A stretch of DNA of 64,000 nucleotides from Natrinema caseinilyticum (GTDB taxonomy: Archaea > Halobacteriota > Halobacteria > Halobacteriales > Natrialbaceae): positions 372,001 through 436,000 of the forward strand of contig NZ_CP100445.1 of assembly GCF_024227435.1 (NCBI RefSeq). The letters are read 5' to 3'. This document shows, in pieces, positions 5,853 to 47,690 of this stretch; the stretch's first letter is position 1; the number at the start of each line of letters is the position of its first letter. Below the pieces are notes generated by a model. The model saw only the letters and a program-made list of their open reading frames with translations, was not told the DNA's origin and searched no databases. Made by a program: the position numbers and the translations under genes.

Positions 5853-6695
5853 TCAGTTCCAGGGCGCGAATCCCGGGTCGACCTGACGGCTCGTTTCGTC
5901 GATGGCATCAATCGTGTTGATATCCTCTCGGTCGAGGTCCACGGTGAGCGATCCCCAATTATCGGCGATGTGGTTCGCACTGGTCGCTTTCGGGATCGCA
6001 GTAACGTCCTTCTCGCGAGCCCAGGCGAGACTGACCTGGGCCTCGGTCACGTCGTGTTTCTCGGCGATCGACTGTATCTCGGGCTGGTCGATGATTCGGC
6101 CGCGCGCCAGCGGCGAGTAGCCGACGACGTCGACGTCCAGGTTGTCGCAGGTTTCCCGGACCGATTCCTGGGGGAGCAGCGGATGGAACTCGACCTGATT
6201 CGCGAAGATCGGCGCGTCGCAGACGTCGACTGCGACCTCGAGTTGTTCGGGTTCGAAATTACTGACGCCGACGTTGTCGATCAGTCCCTCGTTGTAGAGT
6301 TCCGCGAACGCGGCGAGGGTCTCCTCGGCGTCGTAGGTCCTGGACGGCCAGTGGACGTACAGGAGGTCGAGATAGTCGACGCCGAGTCGGTCGAGGCTCT
6401 CTCGAGCCGTCTCGAGGACGTCGTCGTGAGCCAGATTCGATATCCAGATCTTGGTCGCGAGGAAGACGTCTTCGCGATCGACGTCGGCGGCCGCGATGCC
6501 GTCGCCGACGGCGGCTTCGTTGCCGTACGCCTGGGCGGTGTCGATGTGGCGGTAGCCGGTCTCGAGAGCGGTTCGGACGCTCTCGGCGCACTGCGTGGCG
6601 TCCTCGTTCTCCCAGGTTCCGAGGCCGAGCATCGGCATTCCGTCGGTCCGTGGGCACGTTTCGGGAGCGATCACGTCGGCGTCTTCTGTTTCCAT
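5853..6695 (-). CDS. Aldo/keto reductase
   Basis: The 280-residue protein is a TIM-barrel NADPH-dependent carbonyl reductase. The catalytic tetrad is visible: Asp and Tyr in DTAQAYGNE, Lys in LATKIW and His in LYVHWP. The NADPH-binding end (IPKATSANHIADN) is near residue 235. Length and order are normal for the family. The substrate is unknown; haloarchaeal members are usually named 2,5-diketo-D-gluconate reductase-like. The start at 6695 gives METEDADVIAPETCPRTDGMP ahead of the first strand. Confidence 0.88.
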   Translation of the reverse strand: METEDADVIAPETCPRTDGMPMLGLGTWENEDATQCAESVRTALETGYRHIDTAQAYGNEAAVGDGIAAADVDREDVFLATKIWISNLAHDDVLETARESLDRLGVDYLDLLYVHWPSRTYDAEETLAAFAELYNEGLIDNVGVSNFEPEQLEVAVDVCDAPIFANQVEFHPLLPQESVRETCDNLDVDVVGYSPLARGRIIDQPEIQSIAEKHDVTEAQVSLAWAREKDVTAIPKATSANHIADNWGSLTVDLDREDINTIDAIDETSRQVDPGFAPWN

Positions 6696-6858
6696 ACAGT
6701 GACGGACGCGGAGAACGCGAAAAGGGGTTGTGGTACCGGTCAGCGGTTCGGGTTACGACACGGAAATGAGACGGGAGACGATGCGTGCGGCCTGTGAACG
6801 GCACTCGTGGTCGAGCGGAGCCGTGATCGACTGTCCGAGACTCGTATAGATGGGGCCG

Positions 6859-8283
6859 TTATTGGTACAGGTGGTCCCAGGGACGTTCCCGCTCGAGTGC
6901 CGCGCTCGCGGCGAGGACGGTGTCGTCTTCGAATCGGCGGCCGACCAACTGGAGGCCGACGGGATGGTCGCGGTCCGTCAGTCCGGCGGGCGCGGAGGCG
7001 ACCGGATGGCCGGTCCAGTTGAACGGCCACGTCATCGGCCACTCCCAGGCCTCTGCGCCGAGATCCTCCTGCAGTCCGACGTCCCCTCGCGAGAGCGTCG
7101 GCGCGACGAGCAGATCGTAGTCGGCCAGCACGTCCTGGACGGCGTCGTAGACGCCGGTTCGGACGATGCCCGATCGGGCGACGTCCTCGGTGTCGTACTC
7201 GTCGCCGATGTGGAGCATCGCCAGCAGGCTGTCGGAAACCTCCTCGGACCGCTCTCGAAAGTCGACGCCGTGGGACGCTTCCATCACTGTCGCAGATTCG
7301 AAGACGGACGACGTGTACGTCGGCATCGCCGCCTCGCTCAACTCCGCCATCGAATAGTCGTGGCCGACGGTCACCGTATCGACCGTCGCACCGGCGTTCG
7401 CGAGCGCATCGACCGCCTCGTCGACGACCGCCCGCACCTCGTCCGCGACCGGGAAGACGTCGAGGTCAGGACTGTACGCGATACGATACCCGTCGATCGA
7501 CCGTTCGAGTGCGTCTCGATACGCTATCTCGGCGGGAACGCTGTTCGGATCGGCCGGGTGCGGACCGTCCATGACGGAGAGGAGGAGGGCTGCATCTGCG
7601 ACGGTGCGGGTCATCGGCCCCTTCGTCGTGTGCTGGGGTTCGCGGCCGAACGCGCTCGGCCGACCGTCGTCGGGCACCAGCCCGAACGTCGGTTTGAACC
7701 CGTAGACGCCGCAGGCCGCGGCCGGAATGCGAAGCGAGCCTCCCGCGTCGCTGCCCGTCGCGATCGGTGCCATGCGAGCGGACAGCGCCGCGGCGGAACC
7801 GCCGGAGGAGCCGCCCGCGTTGAGATCGGTGTCGATCGGCGACGCCGTCGGGCCGATCACCTCGTTGTCCGTCGTGCCCTTGTGTCCCAGCTCCGGCGTG
7901 TTCGTCTTTCCGATCACGATGGCGCCGGCGTTCTCGAGGCGCTCGACTGTCGCAGCCGTTCGTTCGGAGACGTAGTCCTCGAACAGCGCCGAGCCGTACG
8001 TGTGCCGGATCCCCGCCTTTTCGGCCCCGAGGTCTTTCAACGCCAGCGGGACGCCGTGGAGCGGCCCGACGTCCTCGCCCGCCTCGAGCGCCCGGTCGGC
8101 TTCGGCAGCGGCCTCAAGGGCCTCGTCTTCACAGACCGTGACGAAGGCGTTGATCTCGTCGTCTCGCTCTTCGATCCGTTCGATGTGGGCTTCGACGACT
8201 TCGGTCGCCGTCAACTCCTCGTCTCGAATTCGGCTCGCCAGTTCCGACGCCGAAAGTCGTGTGAGTTCCGTCTCGCGTGACAT
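6859..8283 (-). CDS. Amidase (amidase-signature family)
   Basis: This 474-residue enzyme hydrolyses a carboxamide bond. The amidase-signature Ser-cisSer-Lys triad is present: Lys in PLALKDLG, and the two serines in GGSSGGSAAALSARM and GSDAGGSLRIPAAACG. A C-terminal APAGLTDRDHPVGLQLVG block completes the fold. It is similar to GatA but has no gatB or gatC nearby, so a free-standing amidase of unknown substrate is more likely. The start at 8283 matches the usual N-terminus (two helices before the Lys). Confidence 0.88.
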   Translation of the reverse strand: MSRETELTRLSASELASRIRDEELTATEVVEAHIERIEERDDEINAFVTVCEDEALEAAAEADRALEAGEDVGPLHGVPLALKDLGAEKAGIRHTYGSALFEDYVSERTAATVERLENAGAIVIGKTNTPELGHKGTTDNEVIGPTASPIDTDLNAGGSSGGSAAALSARMAPIATGSDAGGSLRIPAAACGVYGFKPTFGLVPDDGRPSAFGREPQHTTKGPMTRTVADAALLLSVMDGPHPADPNSVPAEIAYRDALERSIDGYRIAYSPDLDVFPVADEVRAVVDEAVDALANAGATVDTVTVGHDYSMAELSEAAMPTYTSSVFESATVMEASHGVDFRERSEEVSDSLLAMLHIGDEYDTEDVARSGIVRTGVYDAVQDVLADYDLLVAPTLSRGDVGLQEDLGAEAWEWPMTWPFNWTGHPVASAPAGLTDRDHPVGLQLVGRRFEDDTVLAASAALERERPWDHLYQ

Positions 8284-8447
8284 ACTGCTAGAACAAGACG
8301 GGAGGATGATATACGTTCGTCCGACGTACGTGGCGGTCTGGCGTGAATCGAATCCCCTCTCCGTTCGATTATCGCCCCACCGATCGGGTAGTCGAGACTC
8401 GAGGTTCCGTCTCTCGGGATGATCGACAATTGCGGTCGGCTGTTCTT

Positions 8448-8474
8448 CGCCGGGTCGAACCCGCCGACCCGGCG
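8448..8474 (-). terminator. Perfect 10-bp hairpin downstream of the PAC2 gene
   Basis: CGCCGGGTCG (8448-8457) and CGACCCGGCG (8465-8474) form a perfect inverted repeat with a 7-base loop, starting 9 bases after the stop of the minus-strand PAC2 gene. A T-tract is not present, so it may act as a 3' end stabiliser and not as a true terminator. Confidence 0.35.
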
Positions 8475-8483
8475 AGTGGGCCC

Positions 8484-9230
8484 CTACTGGTACATTCGCA
8501 GTGGCTGGGCCTGGGTGCTCTCCTCCTGGCCGATCGCCTGCATCTGCCGCGCCAGTCGCTCTCGCTTCGCACGGATCTCCTCCGCGTGGTCGATGAGGTC
8601 CTGGACGTCGATATCGAGGCCGGTGATCGGGCCGATCCCGTCTTCGAGGAGAACGCTCGCTGCCTGCGGATCGGGGAACTGGGGGTCACACTGGACGATG
8701 AGGCCCAGCGTGTCGTAGCCCTCTCGTGCAGCGGCGTCGATGAGCGCCCCCGTCGGACCGGTGATGACGCCGTCTTCCGGCGGGATCGGAACGTCGGCCG
8801 TCTCGAGCCGGTCGCCACCGTCGGCGGTCGCGATGCCGTAGATATCCGGTCGGGTCTCCTCGTCGCGTTCGGCCGGCAGTCCGCTGAGATATACCGGCGT
8901 GGCCCCCCGGTCGATGATCCAACCGGTCAGGCAGTCGGCGACGTTCCCGATGGCCGCCGAACCGATCGGCGCGTCGCTCTGGAGGACGAGCAAGTCGTGG
9001 TCCTCGCTGACGTAGAGGCGCACCGGCGGGCGCGCGGTTCGGTTACCGCCGCGGTAGACGCCGATCCTGGCCAGTCCGTCGCAATGGACGCTCGCGTAGT
9101 AGCGCATATCCAGTTGCGTAACGAGGTGATCGGCCGCGAGCTTTCCCACGAGGCCGACGCCCGGGAATCCCTCCACGAGCGTGGGGTTCTCGAGTTCGAC
9201 GTCCGGTCCCTGCTGGCGAATCTCTGGCAT
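8484..9230 (-). CDS. PAC2 family protein (proteasome assembly chaperone-like)
   Basis: The 248-residue protein has the PAC2 fold beginning (VEGFPGVGLVGKLAADHL, about residues 18-35), shared by archaeal PbaB-type chaperones. The block GLPAERDEETRPDIYGIATA and the late VQCDPQFPDPQAA are typical. The C-terminus is a predicted helix or coiled coil (HAEEIRAKRERLARQMQAI) followed by a QPLRMYQ tail. In archaea such proteins bind proteasome subunits or HbYX-like partners; the exact role here is inferred. The start at 9230 fits the family; a much longer open frame continues upstream but is the antisense of the next gene. Confidence 0.85.
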   Translation of the reverse strand: MPEIRQQGPDVELENPTLVEGFPGVGLVGKLAADHLVTQLDMRYYASVHCDGLARIGVYRGGNRTARPPVRLYVSEDHDLLVLQSDAPIGSAAIGNVADCLTGWIIDRGATPVYLSGLPAERDEETRPDIYGIATADGGDRLETADVPIPPEDGVITGPTGALIDAAAREGYDTLGLIVQCDPQFPDPQAASVLLEDGIGPITGLDIDVQDLIDHAEEIRAKRERLARQMQAIGQEESTQAQPLRMYQ

Positions 9231-10358: not shown

Positions 10359-10891
10359 CCGACGGACGCGACGGTGGCGATCCGGAGACGAACGTGGGCG
10401 ATCGATTCGACCGGGTGCCCGAGAGCGAGGCGGACCGCACCGTCGAGGGCCGGGCCACGCGGACGGCGATCGTCGACTACTTCGCGGATCGGTTCGGCAT
10501 TCCACCGGAGACGTTCGACGACTACACGTTCTGGGAGAAGGGCGCGGGGAAAATCTGGATCTACCGCGGGGAGGCCCCGTCACCGATCGAAATCGAAGCG
10601 ATCGGGATGACCTGTCTACGGACTCGGCAGGAACACTGGAAGCCCACGACGGACTTCGTCCAGCGCTTCGGGCGGGTGGCGACCGAGTGCGTAATCGAAC
10701 TCGAGCGCGACGAGGCCCGACGGTTCGCCGCGGGCGAGGACCAGGATCTCGAGTGGGGCGGCGACTGGGGGTATCTCATCGCCGCTCACGACGTCGCGGG
10801 CGAACGCGAACCGCTCGGCGTCGGCCTGTTCGTCCACGGCGAACTCCGCTCGATGGTGCCGAAAGGTCGGCAGCGAACCCTCGAGTCGTAA
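10355..10891 (+). CDS. Partner of the RNA methylase, PUA-like (DUF7122-like)
   Basis: The 178-residue acidic protein overlaps the NSUN gene by four bases. The segment FWEKGAGKIWIYRGE, followed by GMTCLRTRQEHWKPTTDF, resembles the C-terminal PUA-like extension seen in bacterial RsmF and in the NIP7 family. My reading is that this haloarchaeon carries the RNA-binding accessory domain of its rRNA methylase as a separate, co-translated protein. The function is inferred from domain resemblance and overlap. Confidence 0.75.
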   Translation: MTDGRDGGDPETNVGDRFDRVPESEADRTVEGRATRTAIVDYFADRFGIPPETFDDYTFWEKGAGKIWIYRGEAPSPIEIEAIGMTCLRTRQEHWKPTTDFVQRFGRVATECVIELERDEARRFAAGEDQDLEWGGDWGYLIAAHDVAGEREPLGVGLFVHGELRSMVPKGRQRTLES

Positions 10892-11011
10892 CGATTGCGA
10901 ACCGGGGTCGTCGGTCGTGCGCCCGACATACGCTGGTAGTACCAGCCAGTCCATTACCAATGACAACGGAGTTTCGACACACATAAACCACGGCGTCCGA
11001 ACCACTCACCT

Positions 11012-11215
11012 ATGCCCGACGCGACGCAGCTGCGAGACAGCACCCAGATAATCCTCCCTCGGGAGGTACTCGAGGGGCTCGAACAGCAGCTCGTCGACGA
11101 GTTCACCGTCACCGTCTTTCCGGAGGGTGAGCACGCGTGTCGAATCATCGGCAGTCCCGTCGAGATCAAAGCGGCCAGCGAGTTTCTTTCGCGCCACGGG
11201 GTACGCGTTCGCTGA
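11012..11215 (+). CDS. VNG_1110C family small protein
   Basis: The 67-residue protein (MPDATQLRDSTQIILPREVL...) matches my memory of a short haloarchaeal family of unknown function. The pattern is a DSTQI strand, a helix (EVLEGLEQQLVDEF), then VTVFPEG, a second strand RIIGSPVEIKAAS and an ending FLSRHGV. The fold looks KH- or ACT-like, but that is a guess from the strand-helix order. An ATG with a normal spacing to an AT-rich element supports the start. Confidence 0.7.
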   Translation: MPDATQLRDSTQIILPREVLEGLEQQLVDEFTVTVFPEGEHACRIIGSPVEIKAASEFLSRHGVRVR

Positions 11216-11485
11216 TTGCGCGTCCCGACCGCGTCTCACCGCGGCCCCACGTTGGGATCGGCTTCGCCCGTATCCGGTTCTGCCTTCGTCGATGCCCTCC
11301 GCCGGCGGCACCGGTCTCCGTCCCGTTCCCGACGCTGGATCGCCCCGATGACGTGGCGGTCGGAGCGATCGTGAGACGAGTCCGTTCTCGATCCGATGTA
11401 TCGTTCGTCGACGATCGGTCCGGGATCTGAAATCTACTCTCTCGTCTCCTCGAGCACGGACCGGTCGAGAATCGAAACCGGACGC

Positions 11486-12808
11486 TCACCGCTCGGGATG
11501 AGTCGGTGCGTCGAATCCGCCCCGGACGAGCGGCTTCGAGATGTGTCGGCGCGCACACGGCGGGACCTCGTACCAACCGGGCTCGAGGTCGCGTTCGAGC
11601 GGTCGGTGGGCCTTCTCCGTCCGCGACGTTCCACAGTCGCGGCAGCGATAGCCCTGGTTCCGTCCGGCGCTCTCCATCGTCCGTCCGCAGTCGGGGCAGG
11701 GCGGGGTCACTCGCTCGGTTTTGACGAGGTCGCGGACGGCGATCTTCTCGAGTTTGAGCGTGCCGTCGGACACCTCACCGCAGGCGGTGATTCGATCGCC
11801 CATCCGGAGCGATCGAACGCGATCCCTGAAGCGCTTCGTCGGTTCGAAGGCTGCACACGTGAGCCGCTCCGGTGGCCCTTCGGCGTCTACTGGCGTCCCG
11901 GCGGTCGGTGCGTCGAGGTCGAGGAAGACGTGACCGCCCCGACGGGTCTCCGGGTCGGTCGCGACTCGGCCCTCGAGCCGGTAGGCCCGACCGTCTTCGA
12001 CGGTTCCGATCCCGCCGGGTTGGAGGTGACCGTCCGTCCCCTGATTGGTGACGAACAACTGGCTCTCGGCGACCGGTTCGCACTCGGTGCGTTCGGCGAC
12101 GGACCGGACCGCGTCCGGATCGTCGCCGCGAATCCCGTGCAGGATCGGACCCGGCGTGTGAGGGACGCAAACGGTTTCGCTCTCGCCGCGGTCGACCGTA
12201 TCCCAGACGTCGGGATAGCCCCAGTCGGCCGCCGCGAAGACGCTCTCGCGTTCGACTTCACGCGGCGTCCCCCAGCGGTCTGACTCGCGGTAGGAGATGT
12301 ACTCGTACGTCCACTCTTCGAGCGACCCCCAGGCGCCGATCGCGGCCAGCGCGCCGATCCGTCCCCGGCCGTCGCCGGCGTACCACGATCGATACTCGTG
12401 TCGCTCGAGCAGTGCCACGGCGTCGGCTATCGCCAGGTGATCGCGGATCGCCGCGTGCGCGAATCGCTCGACGTCGGCGGGCGTGTCGCGTTCGTCGGGA
12501 TCGAGGTCCGCGACGACCAGACCGGGATTCGTTCGGTCGTCCGCCGTTTCGGCCAGCTCCTCGAGTCGCTCGCGTGCGATCGTAAACGCCACCTCGGGAT
12601 CGCAGTCGGTGTGGATCGCCAGTGCGGCGTTCCCCCGCGTCTTGTACTCGACAGCCGGGTTGAGACGGACGAGAAGAGTCCTCGAGACGATCGAAGAGCC
12701 GCCCGTGGAGCAACGCTTGCGGAGGTGGTCGGCGATCTCTGTGGCGACGTAGGTCGTACACATCCCCCGCTCGCGCGAGTCGGTATCGTCGATCCCCACG
12801 ATAGTCAT
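11486..12808 (-). CDS. tiaS: tRNA(Ile2) 2-agmatinylcytidine synthetase TiaS
   Basis: TiaS attaches agmatine to C34 of the tRNA-Ile that reads AUA codons, an archaea-specific and essential modification. The 440-residue protein begins with [11 protein letters not shown] and [12 protein letters not shown], the TCKD/ATP-binding start of the family. The FLD and OB-type regions follow. A C-terminal zinc ribbon is seen ([12 protein letters not shown]...YRCRDCGTS, about residues 375-400). The open frame extends 40 codons upstream, but [10 protein letters not shown] is the conserved N-terminus, so the start is placed at 12808. It is divergent from the HTH regulator. Confidence 0.92.
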
Positions 12809-43029: not shown

Positions 43030-43467
43030 TTAGCTCTGATTCTGCTCTCGATTCGCGCCGAGATCTGCCTGAGAAACGATCTCCGCCCCGACGGGCGAGA
43101 GATCGACGGTCACGTCCTCGGTGACGGCCTTGCTGATCTCGTCTAAGTTGCCCGCGAGCACGGTCAACACGTCGTCCGGGTTCGCGTACAGGAGCATGTT
43201 CCCGTCCTGTCCCTCCGCGACGAGTTGCGTGTCGTTCAGGACGATCTGATTGTTCTGAATCGTCGCCGACACGACCGGTAGCGCCGCCGGTTTCCCCGGC
43301 TCGTCGTCTCTGACCCGTCGAATGTGCACCTCCTCGAGATCGATGACCTCCTTGTGTTTCTTGATCTGTTCGGCGCAGTCGACCATATCGTTGAGAAGGG
43401 CCGTTCGTTTCTCGTTGCCGTGATCGCCGTCGAGACAGTGCTGACAGACGCGGAGTTCGAGACGCAT
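43030..43467 (-). CDS. Hypothetical haloarchaeal protein
   Basis: The 145-residue acidic protein is not recognised. The first 20 residues hold CQHCLDGDHG, a possible zinc or redox pair, and Cys31 follows in VDCAEQIKKHKEV. The central part contains VSATIQNNQIVLNDTQLVA and a predicted helix DVLTVLAGNLDEISKAV. The start at 43467 gives MRLELRVCQHC; an upstream extension of the frame is not used. It lies 106 bases from the convergent-side MBL gene. Confidence 0.65.
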   Translation of the reverse strand: MRLELRVCQHCLDGDHGNEKRTALLNDMVDCAEQIKKHKEVIDLEEVHIRRVRDDEPGKPAALPVVSATIQNNQIVLNDTQLVAEGQDGNMLLYANPDDVLTVLAGNLDEISKAVTEDVTVDLSPVGAEIVSQADLGANREQNQS

Positions 43468-43573
43468 TGACCGCCGATTGGAGATGGAGACCGATGAGAA
43501 TTCCGCTTCCACACCCGGCGAGGCGCGGCGCCGAACTCTCCTCGAGTTGTCGGTTCGACGCCGGATACCGCGC

Positions 43574-44251
43574 TCACTCGCGCAACCGGTCGTGAATGTC
43601 CCGAATGCGCTCGGTCCCGCGGTCGACGTAGCCGCCGTGAAAGCACAGCGTGTGATCGACGTCGAGTGCTCCGAGCGCGGCGACCGACTCGGCCGCGCGG
43701 TCCATCTCCGGCGTGAAATGGGGTTTGGGCCCCGCGAGCGGCTCGTCGCCGTCTGCAACGAGTGCGTCGCCAGCGATCAACAGATTTCCGTCCGGGAAGT
43801 AAAGCGAAATATGACCCGGTGAATGTCCGGGCGTCGCGACGACCTCCATCGGACCCGCGAGCGTCGAGATCCGAACGCCGTCCGCGAGTTCGAGGTCGAC
43901 TTCGACGGGCGGGTAGCGGTCCCCGTCACCCTTTATCGGGTCGCGCTCGCCGGAGAGGTACGGGACCTCGTCGCGGTGGCACGCGACGACCGCGTCGACT
44001 CGTTCGAGCAGTTCGGCGAGGCCTGCGGCGTGGTCTCCGTCGTGGTGCGTGAGAGCAACCAGCCAGACGTCCTCGAGTTCGTACCCCAGATTTCGGAGGT
44101 GAGTCTCGAGCGTCTCGACGGCGCCACGAGGACCGACGTCGAGGAGTACCAGCCCGCGCGCCGTCTCCGTAACTGTCGGGGTGATCGTGATCTCTCGACC
44201 GCCGTAGTCGACCGTGATCGGCAACGCGTGGACACCAACGCTTCCTTGCAT
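43574..44251 (-). CDS. MBL-fold metallo-hydrolase
   Basis: The 225-residue protein has the metallo-beta-lactamase metal motif THHDGDHAAG (a variant HxHxDH, with His-Asp-Gly-Asp-His), then TPGHSPGHIS, GDALVAD and a final CFHGG. It belongs to the large hydrolase superfamily; substrate unknown. The start MQGSVGVHALPITVDYGG is the usual family opening. A minus-strand TATA element at 44355-44362 would allow a start at 44323, adding 24 residues. It shares a divergent promoter region with the terpene-synthase-like gene. Confidence 0.83.
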   Translation of the reverse strand: MQGSVGVHALPITVDYGGREITITPTVTETARGLVLLDVGPRGAVETLETHLRNLGYELEDVWLVALTHHDGDHAAGLAELLERVDAVVACHRDEVPYLSGERDPIKGDGDRYPPVEVDLELADGVRISTLAGPMEVVATPGHSPGHISLYFPDGNLLIAGDALVADGDEPLAGPKPHFTPEMDRAAESVAALGALDVDHTLCFHGGYVDRGTERIRDIHDRLRE

Positions 44252-44365
44252 GCAGCGGCCATTCGATGCCAGCACGATAGAGTTGTCCGTCTCTCGGCAC
44301 GCACTCGTGACTCGGACTGCCATCGGGCGCCCTCCCTTCGTCGCAATCATGAACAATTATACAAG

Positions 44366-44396: not shown

Positions 44397-45392
44397 ATGA
44401 GGAACAAGTTTGAAGTTTCAACTCGCGATGCTGATACTACCCCCCTTGCTGCCGTTCGACAACAGGACCTCCCTGACACGGTTCTGCCGTTGATCGAGTC
44501 GTACGACGAGATCGCTGCTGACAGGGATCGGTTCCTCTGGCAGTGGCTCTATCACCTTTTTCCGACGTTCAGGTTTTCGTGTGTCCAGGACGAACGCGGT
44601 CGCACCGTCCGCGACGCGAAATTGGTCGCGACGATATTCGCCGTCGTCGCTGACGACGTCGCGGAACAACACGCCGATCGCGCGACGTTCGACGAACTGA
44701 CCGCGATTCCGTTCGACCACCGGCGTTCGAACCCGGATCGCGACGACGTCGACGGCGACGTTATTCGGTTTTTATCGGACGTCTGGGAACAGTTCACCGC
44801 GCTCTACGACAGCGGCCCCCGATCCGCGGAATTCGAGGACCTGTTGCTGTTCGATCTCAAGCAGGTGTTTCAGGCGGTCGAATACTCGTACCTCGCGAAC
44901 GATTACCCCGGTCTGGTCTCGGAACGCGAACTCTGGCGGTACGACGCGTACAACATGCTGATCTTCGTGTACGCCGATATCGACCTCGCGAACGCCCCGT
45001 CGTTCGACTCGAGCGAGTTGTCGCTGCTCCGGCAGGTGTGTGACCGGACGCAGCGAATGGCGCGCATCGGTAACTGGATTTCGACCTGGAAGCGAGAACT
45101 CGCCGAGGGCGACTGTAGTTCCGGCGTCGTCGTCCACGCGTTGGAAAACGACATCGTCTCTCACGAGACGATACGGACGATCAGGAGAAACCGGACCGAC
45201 GCCGTAGTCCGTCCCGTCATCGAATCGATCGAGGAATCCGACGTCGTCGACCGGTTCCTGCAATGTTGGCGAGCAGAATACGAGAAGGCAATGCAGTTCG
45301 AGTCGGCGATCGACAGCATCGATGTCGGAACGTATCTCGATGGATTCGAACGAATACTGGACTACCACATCTCGAGCGAGGGGCACAAGTGA
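44397..45392 (+). CDS. Class I terpene-synthase-like protein
   Basis: Of the 331 residues, residues 80-105 read IFAVVADDVAEQHADRATFDEL, the spacing of the DDxxD/E metal motif (Asp86, Asp87, Glu90). About 140 residues later GNWISTWKRELAEGD gives the second metal (NSE) motif, N226-x-x-x-T-x-x-x-E234, then a tail like that of bacterial enzymes (SSGVVVHALENDIVSHETI). Arg181, 45 residues before Asn226, is a candidate pyrophosphate sensor. The second NSE position is Trp, where Asp is usual. Family: sesquiterpene or similar cyclases that bind an isoprenoid diphosphate with three Mg2+. The substrate is unknown. No prenyltransferase or P450 gene is adjacent. The start is supported by a TATA box. Confidence 0.6.
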   Translation: MRNKFEVSTRDADTTPLAAVRQQDLPDTVLPLIESYDEIAADRDRFLWQWLYHLFPTFRFSCVQDERGRTVRDAKLVATIFAVVADDVAEQHADRATFDELTAIPFDHRRSNPDRDDVDGDVIRFLSDVWEQFTALYDSGPRSAEFEDLLLFDLKQVFQAVEYSYLANDYPGLVSERELWRYDAYNMLIFVYADIDLANAPSFDSSELSLLRQVCDRTQRMARIGNWISTWKRELAEGDCSSGVVVHALENDIVSHETIRTIRRNRTDAVVRPVIESIEESDVVDRFLQCWRAEYEKAMQFESAIDSIDVGTYLDGFERILDYHISSEGHK

Positions 45393-45837
45393 CGGTCGCG
45401 TCGTAACGGGTTCGTAACCGGAGTCGATTCCCGGACGGGCGGTTCGACGTGGGTCGGTTCGGTTTTCGACGTCGTAGCCGCGGCTATCGGTGTCGTCGTT
45501 CACCGAGGACCGTGACGGAGACAGAGACGCCGTCCCGCTATACAGCGCCTTCCGAATTCAGAGACTGTGTACTCCTCGGCCCGTCTCCTTTCGGTGTGGC
45601 GAAAGCGGAGGCGTTCACCGACGGCCTCGACCGCGTTGACCTGGACGGACATCCACCGGTCGGATAGCGTTGCCTGGCCGCTTCGGTATGATCTCATTTC
45701 GGGGCCGAACGGGACCAGCATCACGTTTCCGGTCGGATCTGCCGGCGGAGCGGTCGCGAGGAGCGGACGACCGTAATGTCCACCTAGATGATTCTCCACC
45801 GCTCATAACTTTACCACCTCGTAACACGTGGCCGGGT
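45393..45837. other. Intergenic stretch before the deacetylase-like gene
   Basis: No convincing gene is seen. Two overlapping open frames exist (plus 45449-45667 and minus 45500-45799). The plus frame ends with AKAEAFTDGLDRVDLDGHPP, which is acidic like real haloarchaeal protein, but its start is Arg-rich. An AT-rich CATAACTTTA near 45804-45813 is a likely promoter for the gene at 45838. Confidence 0.35.
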
Positions 45838-46611
45838 ATGGTTGGGTCGCTATCACAACACGAAGAGGCCGACTCCGTCAGTGCAGGAACCGAGGACTCG
45901 AACCCAATCCAGTTCACGTACGATACGTACGAGGAGCTCCTGGTCCAGCTGCGATCACGGGGATACGAATTCACGTCGTACGATGGCTCCGTCACCGACG
46001 GCGAGGTTTTGTTGCGCCACGACGTGGACTGGTCGCCCCAGCGGGCGACGAAGATCGCGGAAATCGAGGCCGACGCCGGTGTCTCCGCGACCTACTTCTT
46101 CTTGCTCTCCTCGCCGTTTTACAACGCGTTGTACGAGGAGAATCGAGACGCCATCGATCGAATCACCTCACTGGGGCACGACGTCGGCTTGCACTTCAGC
46201 ACTCACCAGTACTGGTCGTCGGAACCCGCGGACGAGGATCTCGTTGCAGCCGTCGATCGCGAGCGCGACATCCTCTCGTCGGTGGTCGACGAACCGATCG
46301 ACGTCGTCTCGTTCCATATCCCGCCGGATTGGGTGCTGAAACGGAGCTACGACGGGTTCGTGAGCACCTACGAGAAACGGTTCTTCACGTCGATCGCGTA
46401 CCGGGGAGACTCGAACCAGCGGTGGCGTGATTCGCCGCCGTTTGCCGACGGGTTTCCCGGGCGACTACAGATCCTCGTCCACCCGGGGCTGTGGGCCGAA
46501 TCCGATCAAATGTTCGCCGAGCGGTTGTACCGCGAACGTGACGACCGACATCTGGCGATCAGTGAATTCCTCAATTATCAATTCATCGAGGACGGCGTGA
46601 GTAGATCGTAA
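45838..46611 (+). CDS. NodB-like polysaccharide deacetylase family protein
   Basis: The 257-residue protein has LLRHDVDWS (Asp62, Asp64) for the first NodB metal motif and GLHFSTH (His119, His123) for the second, followed by SFHIPPDW and a late HPGLW. It is cytoplasmic, as no signal peptide is visible. Members of this branch act on small sugars or nucleotide sugars in glycan pathways. It lies 47 bases upstream of a formyltransferase gene on the same strand, so both may modify the same amino sugar. The ATG at 45838 is preferred over the upstream extension. Confidence 0.75.
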   Translation: MVGSLSQHEEADSVSAGTEDSNPIQFTYDTYEELLVQLRSRGYEFTSYDGSVTDGEVLLRHDVDWSPQRATKIAEIEADAGVSATYFFLLSSPFYNALYEENRDAIDRITSLGHDVGLHFSTHQYWSSEPADEDLVAAVDRERDILSSVVDEPIDVVSFHIPPDWVLKRSYDGFVSTYEKRFFTSIAYRGDSNQRWRDSPPFADGFPGRLQILVHPGLWAESDQMFAERLYRERDDRHLAISEFLNYQFIEDGVSRS

Positions 46612-46658
46612 AACGATAGCTTTGAACGAAAGACATACTTCGACCCACCGATCGAAAA

Positions 46659-47690
46659 ATGGAACATACACAACTCGAACCTGAAGACGAACCGATCCGC
46701 GAGCCGCGGATCGTATTCGCCAGCTGTACGGACGCCGGATTCGACCTCTTTCGGTACGTCCACGAGGAACTCGCCGAAGTGACCGAACTCGTTTCGCTGA
46801 CGCCCGAACAGGGCGAGCGGAACGGCGTCTGCAGTTACTACGATCACGCCGAGTACGCCGCGGAGCAGGACATTTCGGTCTACTATCCCCAGACCTACGG
46901 AATGGACGAGCGGGACGTCGATCACTTCGTCACCCTCGACGCCGATCTCTTGCTCGTACACGGCTGGCAGCGGCTCATCCCCGGGGACGTCCTCGAGTCG
47001 TTCACGCGCGGAGCGCTCGGCCTGCACGGGTCGGCCTTTGGATTGCCGAAAGGGCGGGGCCGGTCGCCGATGAACTGGTCGCTCATCGAAGACCTCGACA
47101 GGTTTCTCCTCTCGGTGATGCACCTGGACGAGGGGGCCGACTCCGGTGACGTCGTCGCAACGCAGAAGTTCGACATCAATCGTCACGACGACATCCAGTC
47201 GCTATATCATAAGCTCGTCATGACCGGTCAACAACTATTCGACGAAATACTCGACGACGTCCTGGCTGGAACCGCAGAACTCGAGGTTCAAACGGCTGAA
47301 CCAACCTATTACCCGAAGCGGAATCCCGAGGACGGTGCTATCCACTGGGAGGATTCGACGAGAACGATCTACAACCTCGTTCGGGCCGTCGCACGTCCCT
47401 ATCCGGGGGCGTTCACCGAACACGACGGAACGCGCGTTACCATCTGGGACGCCCAGCCGTTCTCTGCGGATCTACTGCTCGACGAGCGCCCCGGCACGGT
47501 CGTTCAGGTCTTCCAGGCGAGCCAGCAGTTCGTCGTCAAGACGAGCGACGGCACGCTGCTCGTCACCGACTGGGAGGGGGAAAATTGGGACCCAGAGCGA
47601 GGGATGGTCCTCGAGTCGCTCACGAACGAGCTATCGGATAGCCCGAACCGGATCGATCGGCCGGAACACGAGGACTCGTTGACGCGGTAG
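46659..47690 (+). CDS. Sugar-type formyltransferase (FMT fold)
   Basis: The 343-residue protein resembles methionyl-tRNA formyltransferase, but archaea do not formylate initiator tRNA, so a sugar N-formyltransferase is more likely. LLVHGWQRLIP and GLHGSAFGLPKGRGRSPMNWS match the catalytic region (His123), and the Asp of EGADSGDV (Asp161) is present. The catalytic Asn expected two residues before His is Gly121. A C-terminal FMT-like domain follows (NLVRAVARPYPGAFTEHDG). It follows a deacetylase-like gene, which could supply the free amino sugar. Confidence 0.75.
   Translation: MEHTQLEPEDEPIREPRIVFASCTDAGFDLFRYVHEELAEVTELVSLTPEQGERNGVCSYYDHAEYAAEQDISVYYPQTYGMDERDVDHFVTLDADLLLVHGWQRLIPGDVLESFTRGALGLHGSAFGLPKGRGRSPMNWSLIEDLDRFLLSVMHLDEGADSGDVVATQKFDINRHDDIQSLYHKLVMTGQQLFDEILDDVLAGTAELEVQTAEPTYYPKRNPEDGAIHWEDSTRTIYNLVRAVARPYPGAFTEHDGTRVTIWDAQPFSADLLLDERPGTVVQVFQASQQFVVKTSDGTLLVTDWEGENWDPERGMVLESLTNELSDSPNRIDRPEHEDSLTR

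Follow-up and report, generated by a model that had tools for sequence, protein, structure and literature searches.

Gene and genomic setting

The window, the whole stretch of 64,000 nucleotides that was analysed, carries a gene for a protein resembling class I terpene synthases (P0001). It comes from the largest of the contigs that make up a haloarchaeal genome of 4.77 Mb. Features are listed by window coordinates; residue numbers are those of P0001, and conservation counts refer to an alignment of 104 family sequences.

43574..44356, minus strand: divergent metallo-beta-lactamase-fold hydrolase; adjoins the gene in 19 loci of the P0001 subclade.
44397..45392, plus strand: terpene-synthase-like gene P0001, 331 aa (ORF, Pfam, AlphaFold2 model, VIA).
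44589..44669, plus strand: helix 65-91, equated with helix D (DSSP of the AlphaFold2 model); aspartate motif at its end.
44652..44666, plus strand: putative aspartate-rich metal motif DDVAE (86-90); D86 in 98/104, D87 in 103/104, E/D90 in 102/104.
44937..44939, plus strand: R181, profile-aligned with the pyrophosphate-sensor Arg of bacterial enzymes; Arg in 26/104.
44955..44963, plus strand: predicted helix G break, between helices 176-187 and 189-198 (AlphaFold2 model).
44982..44984, plus strand: D196, invariant (104/104); near the helix-G acidic anchor position of terpene synthases.
45072..45098, plus strand: putative NSE-type metal motif NWISTWKRE (226-234); metal-ligand positions N226, T230, and E234; Trp (W227) where Asp is usual.
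45321..45323, plus strand: D309, at the start of the last helix; 103/104, family-specific.

The mechanical open reading frame extends upstream to a GTG at 44214; homologues begin near the ATG at 44397. Among the named genomes compared, that of Natrinema gelatinilyticum is nearest; its copy is 88% identical, and the differences between the two copies point clearly to purifying selection (dN 0.065 vs. dS 0.415; dN/dS about 0.16).

In the tree, P0001 lies within a clade of 19 Natrialbaceae loci, all with the divergent metallo-beta-lactamase-fold neighbor. Nre, L21e, RpoF, DUF655, and KsgA surround the gene repeatedly across this clade, a recurrence that suggests vertical inheritance there. A phage or plasmid origin was rejected: neither a viral relative nor a PHROG was found, and the L21e/RpoF/DUF655/KsgA setting extends across the Natrialbaceae. 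A conserved haloarchaeal protein of 242 aa, with no Pfam family, is encoded at 43030-43758 (minus strand), and its relatives are found near the gene in 15 other loci. Between P0001 and the L21e region, a polysaccharide deacetylase-like gene is followed by a formyltransferase gene (45670-47690, plus strand); at one other locus (L061), two genes similar in size and spacing stand in the place of this pair. A biosynthetic cluster was likewise rejected, as none lies beside the gene in the window, the downstream genes being the deacetylase-like and formyltransferase pair, and no terpene-tailoring gene (P450 or prenyl synthase) adjoins P0001 there. Among the annotated neighbors of its relatives, no such tailoring gene was recognized save in Halobellus limi, where a prenyltransferase/squalene oxidase repeat protein is encoded two genes from the family member.

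Conservation of the putative metal site

An earlier note on this DNA, made from the letters alone, had described a protein of 331 residues with two class I metal motifs, DDVAE at 86-90 and NWISTWKRE at 226-234. Length and positions were all borne out, and both motifs are kept in nearly all homologues. At the metal-ligand positions of the second motif, N226 and E234 are each found in 103 of the 104 sequences and T/S230 in all of them; the basic position beside these ligands, R/K233, is kept in 103. The motif pair on its own is weak evidence, both motifs occurring 120-160 residues apart in 120 of 20,000 shuffles of P0001 (0.6%). A chance match was rejected on the predicted fold (see below) together with conservation across 104 homologues; it is these two, rather than the pair alone, that take the resemblance far beyond chance.

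The replacement of the NSE Asp by Trp, earlier thought liable to change activity, is present as described (W227), but in the alignment this residue falls outside the metal-ligand positions, and Trp there is the rule of the family (96/104; Thr or Ala in the Methanosarcina-type group); the Asp is also absent from the active enzyme SmTS1, discussed below. W231 is invariant, and R43, R212, and R223 are almost invariant.

Pyrophosphate-handling residues

Structural anchors of bacterial terpene synthases were listed by Hou and Dickschat (PMC8450962). R181, put forward in the earlier note as a candidate pyrophosphate sensor, sits 45 residues before N226 (consensus sensor Arg, about 46 before the NSE motif) and does align with the bacterial sensor Arg, but the low count given above shows that it is not a conserved feature of the family. 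Three further anchors of that consensus are absent from P0001: the Asp at the second NSE position (W227), the Pro 21 residues before DDxxD (D65), and the Asn 8-9 residues after NSE (S242/G243). The C-terminal RY pair is absent as well, the chain stopping at 331; its expected place, at about residue 331, is an extension of a profile alignment that stops at residue 325. The tail, which had been said to follow bacterial cyclases closely, therefore resembles them in part, with the post-NSE Asn and the RY pair missing.

Because the sensor Arg is rare in the family and the RY pair absent, pyrophosphate handling probably differs from that of canonical bacterial enzymes. The NSE Asp of selinadiene synthase is reported to form a hydrogen bond with the sensor Arg; SmTS1, an active sesterterpene synthase, has neither the sensor Arg (G180) nor the NSE Asp (N226QRYSYFKE) (PMC8450962). 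Since SmTS1 is active without both, these losses do not exclude activity, and the pairing of the two residues would naturally explain why they are lost together, with SmTS1 as a functioning precedent. With the sensor Arg rare, the RY pair gone, and Trp in place of the NSE Asp, other basic residues would be expected in that role.

Predicted structure

The AlphaFold2 model of P0001, built from a 90-sequence alignment, is all helix (pLDDT 91.5, pTM 0.90), with the NSE-like motif close to where helix 205-236 ends. The fold check proposed earlier thus turned out in favor of a predicted all-helical class I terpene synthase fold, rather than of the different fold that would have spoken against the earlier reading. 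In VIA (rows within Z 1 are treated as tied), the first-ranked match, to 1n1z (bornyl diphosphate synthase), had Z 21.5 with 282 residues aligned at rmsd 3.4. Taxadiene synthase, Sat1646 (7e4n; Z 21.1, 266 aligned), and selinadiene synthase (4okm; Z 20.7, 269 aligned), the last being a comparison suggested in the earlier note, were also among the top matches listed, and the best 50 listed were all terpene synthases. In Foldseek, the best match was the diterpene synthase VenA (E 9.3e-5), with prenyl diphosphate synthases at similar E-values. Identity as a prenyl diphosphate synthase was nevertheless rejected: these enzymes appear in Foldseek but not among the best 50 VIA rows, and P0001 has a single DDxxD-type motif. 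A Methanosarcina-type member about 20% identical to P0001 was modeled with pLDDT 87.1, and its model matches Sat1646 (best Z 23.8) and other terpene synthases.

Family membership and occurrence

Residues 80-269 of P0001 match Terpene_syn_C_2 (PF19086) over profile positions 4-196 of 199 at E 8.5e-5. The match to this family, a check proposed in the earlier note, is thus nearly full-length, but its score, 22.8 bits, falls below the curated cut-off of 23.7. PF19086 is matched at E<=0.1 by 77 of 90 aligned family members. A profile-profile comparison against ten annotated terpene synthases from bacteria and haloarchaea gave E 2.6e-5, with the NSE motifs superposed and the aspartate motifs within one residue of each other. 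P0001 is almost certainly a homologue of these enzymes that has the terpene synthase fold and the metal-site residues.

Homologues at E <=0.001 occur in 121 of 391 genomes of the class (haloarchaea), in 39 of 86 genera, and the great majority of the haloarchaeal homologues in this sample are full-length open frames. A PF19086 match above the cut-off is found in 50 of the 391 genomes, at least two of which (G183, G231) score best through a separate bacterial-type terpene synthase; many close relatives of P0001, unlike P0001 itself, score above this cut-off. A phylum-wide profile search adds methanogen-type genomes with divergent members; in Methanosarcina-type genomes (L144-L150) the motifs read AVDDSCD and NTVNTWKRE, and the one such member scanned was not recognized by Pfam. 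At L119, two gene copies stand in tandem (6326-7390, plus strand; 7671-8711, plus strand). In some non-halophilic members of the phylum, copies at L143 (6695-7468, minus strand), at L151, and on contig 231 of G593 are stop-interrupted or fragmented. On all six named haloarchaeal plasmids that were checked, the gene is labeled 'hypothetical protein'.

Proposed function and alternatives

P0001 is probably a class I terpene synthase that depends on Mg2+ and belongs to a divergent archaeal clade. For its metal binding, catalysis, substrate, and product we infer the following scheme. D86, D87, and E90, at the end of helix D, and N226, T230, and E234, near the end of helix H, would hold three Mg2+; these would coordinate the diphosphate group of a prenyl substrate and set off its loss, after which the allyl cation would cyclize or be quenched inside the helical pocket. 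Candidates for taking over the role of the sensor Arg and the RY pair are R233 and three nearly invariant residues, R43, R212, and R223. Haloarchaea make GGPP and GFPP for their lipids; the likely substrates would be GGPP or GFPP, or FPP.

There is a small but appreciable chance that P0001 is instead a prenyltransferase or hydrolase with a terpene synthase fold, which ionizes a prenyl diphosphate in the same metal site but forms no cyclic terpene, because water or a non-terpene acceptor takes up the prenyl cation. The altered diphosphate-handling residues would suit a changed reaction, and the N-prenyltransferase DabA (6vkz), which shares the fold, appears with Z 21.4 in the match list of the methanogen model. 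The best 50 VIA matches of P0001, all to terpene synthases, speak against this reading, yet matches within Z 1 of each other count as tied, and a shared fold does not by itself determine the reaction; the neighboring genes, for their part, suggest no acceptor.

A non-catalytic sensor or carrier, binding prenyl diphosphates and acting with adjoining signaling proteins, is quite unlikely. This reading draws on the genes found beside family members outside the P0001 lineage. Directly after the gene, some sister lineages have an HTH/FilR1-like regulator and, in many cases, HalOD1 next to that; in others the gene faces a Bat-type PAS/GAF/HTH_10 regulator or adjoins a PAS histidine kinase (loci with regulator or HalOD1 linkage: L086-L089, L094-L102, L113, L114, L117, L163-L167). 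A Bat-type, HTH/FilR1-like, or PAS-kinase gene lies within 600 bases in 22 of 63 loci, a count biased upwards because the regulator families were picked from recurrent neighbors; regulator matches number 25 within the first kilobase but 2 per kilobase past three, and three changes on the tree account for the HTH linkage, two for the Bat linkage. The frequent loss of the sensor Arg and the RY pair would also fit a mere binder. Such a binder, however, would have no need of the three NSE ligand positions and the aspartate motif, which are almost always kept, and at the loci of P0001's own lineage there is no Bat, HTH, or PAS-kinase neighbor.

That P0001 is a decayed terpene synthase on its way to a pseudogene is highly improbable: several residues conserved in characterized terpene synthases are missing from it, inactive terpene synthase clades are known (PMC10509563), and a few copies in other archaea are stop-interrupted (e.g., in G478 and G593), but against this stand the low dN/dS of its lineage, frames intact in nearly all haloarchaea, and ligand positions retained from haloarchaea to methanogens.

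Beyond the preferred reading of P0001 as a terpene synthase, a wider proposal can be put forward tentatively, as possible but rather doubtful: the family may form a Halobacteriota-specific terpenoid branch, a largely vertical clade with its own diphosphate grip, often wired to regulators, whose C20/C25 product would have a membrane or signal role.

Comparison with known systems

Archaea build their membranes from prenyl diphosphates; to our knowledge, almost no archaeal terpene cyclases have been described. Occurring as it does in about one in three haloarchaea and also among methanogens, the family would indicate a widespread, uncharacterized archaeal terpenoid, and would offer a test of how class I terpene synthases function when their usual diphosphate sensor is missing. 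In MARTS-DB, archaeal entries are rare, and the archaeal reference given there is a farnesylgeranyl diphosphate synthase. In the literature that was searched, no paper on the family of P0001 was found. A preprint by Samusevich et al. (bioRxiv 2024.01.29.577750), as its title is cited in PMC12797696, deals with terpenoid biosynthesis in archaea and claims active archaeal synthases, among which the family of P0001 may be included. The earlier remark that no described haloarchaeal enzyme of this kind was known is made uncertain by this preprint, because of which P0001's family is not presented here as a first archaeal terpene synthase.

A second, clearly bacterial-type family, in which an SRPBCC-like domain is fused to a terpene synthase domain, occurs in a few haloarchaea and is annotated 'SRPBCC family protein' or 'hypothetical'. 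The fusions are located as follows.

L123, 8500-9936, minus strand, and 10660-12051, plus strand: SRPBCC fusions.
L124, 1959-3392, plus strand: SRPBCC fusion.
L125, 492-1889, minus strand: SRPBCC fusion, near a P450.
L156, 7479-8918, plus strand: SRPBCC fusion.

In Actinarchaeum and Halocatena they stand beside a polyprenyl synthetase gene. The fusions of Actinarchaeum, Halocatena, and a Natrialba-type genome (L123, L156, and L124) share with P0001 a haloarchaeal origin and a class I domain; they differ in being bacterial-type, with 149-167 bits to PF19086 (two scanned), and in an N-terminal SRPBCC-like domain.

Sat1646 (7e4n/7e4o) and Stt4548 (7e4m), actinomycete class I pimarane-type diterpene synthases, are matched by the family profile among PDB sequences, aligning through an R..N....S..R...GD stretch at E 0.072 and 0.59, respectively, values that are not significant on sequence alone. 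The sestermobaraene synthase SmTS1, compared by its description (PMC8450962), acts on C25 GFPP and, like many family members, is without the sensor Arg and the NSE Asp; it differs in the Asn at its first aspartate position and in its Streptomyces origin.

With bacterial PF19086 enzymes such as selinadiene synthase and 1,8-cineole synthase, P0001 shares the (predicted) fold, helix order, and helix-G break, the aspartate-rich motif, the N/T/E ligand positions, and the K/R-E end of the NSE motif. It differs from them in an identity of about 10-15%, a Pfam score below the cut-off, and Trp for the NSE Asp; the archaeal family as a whole is set apart by a rare sensor Arg, the lack of an RY pair, and residues of its own, the invariant D196 and W231 and the near-invariant D309.
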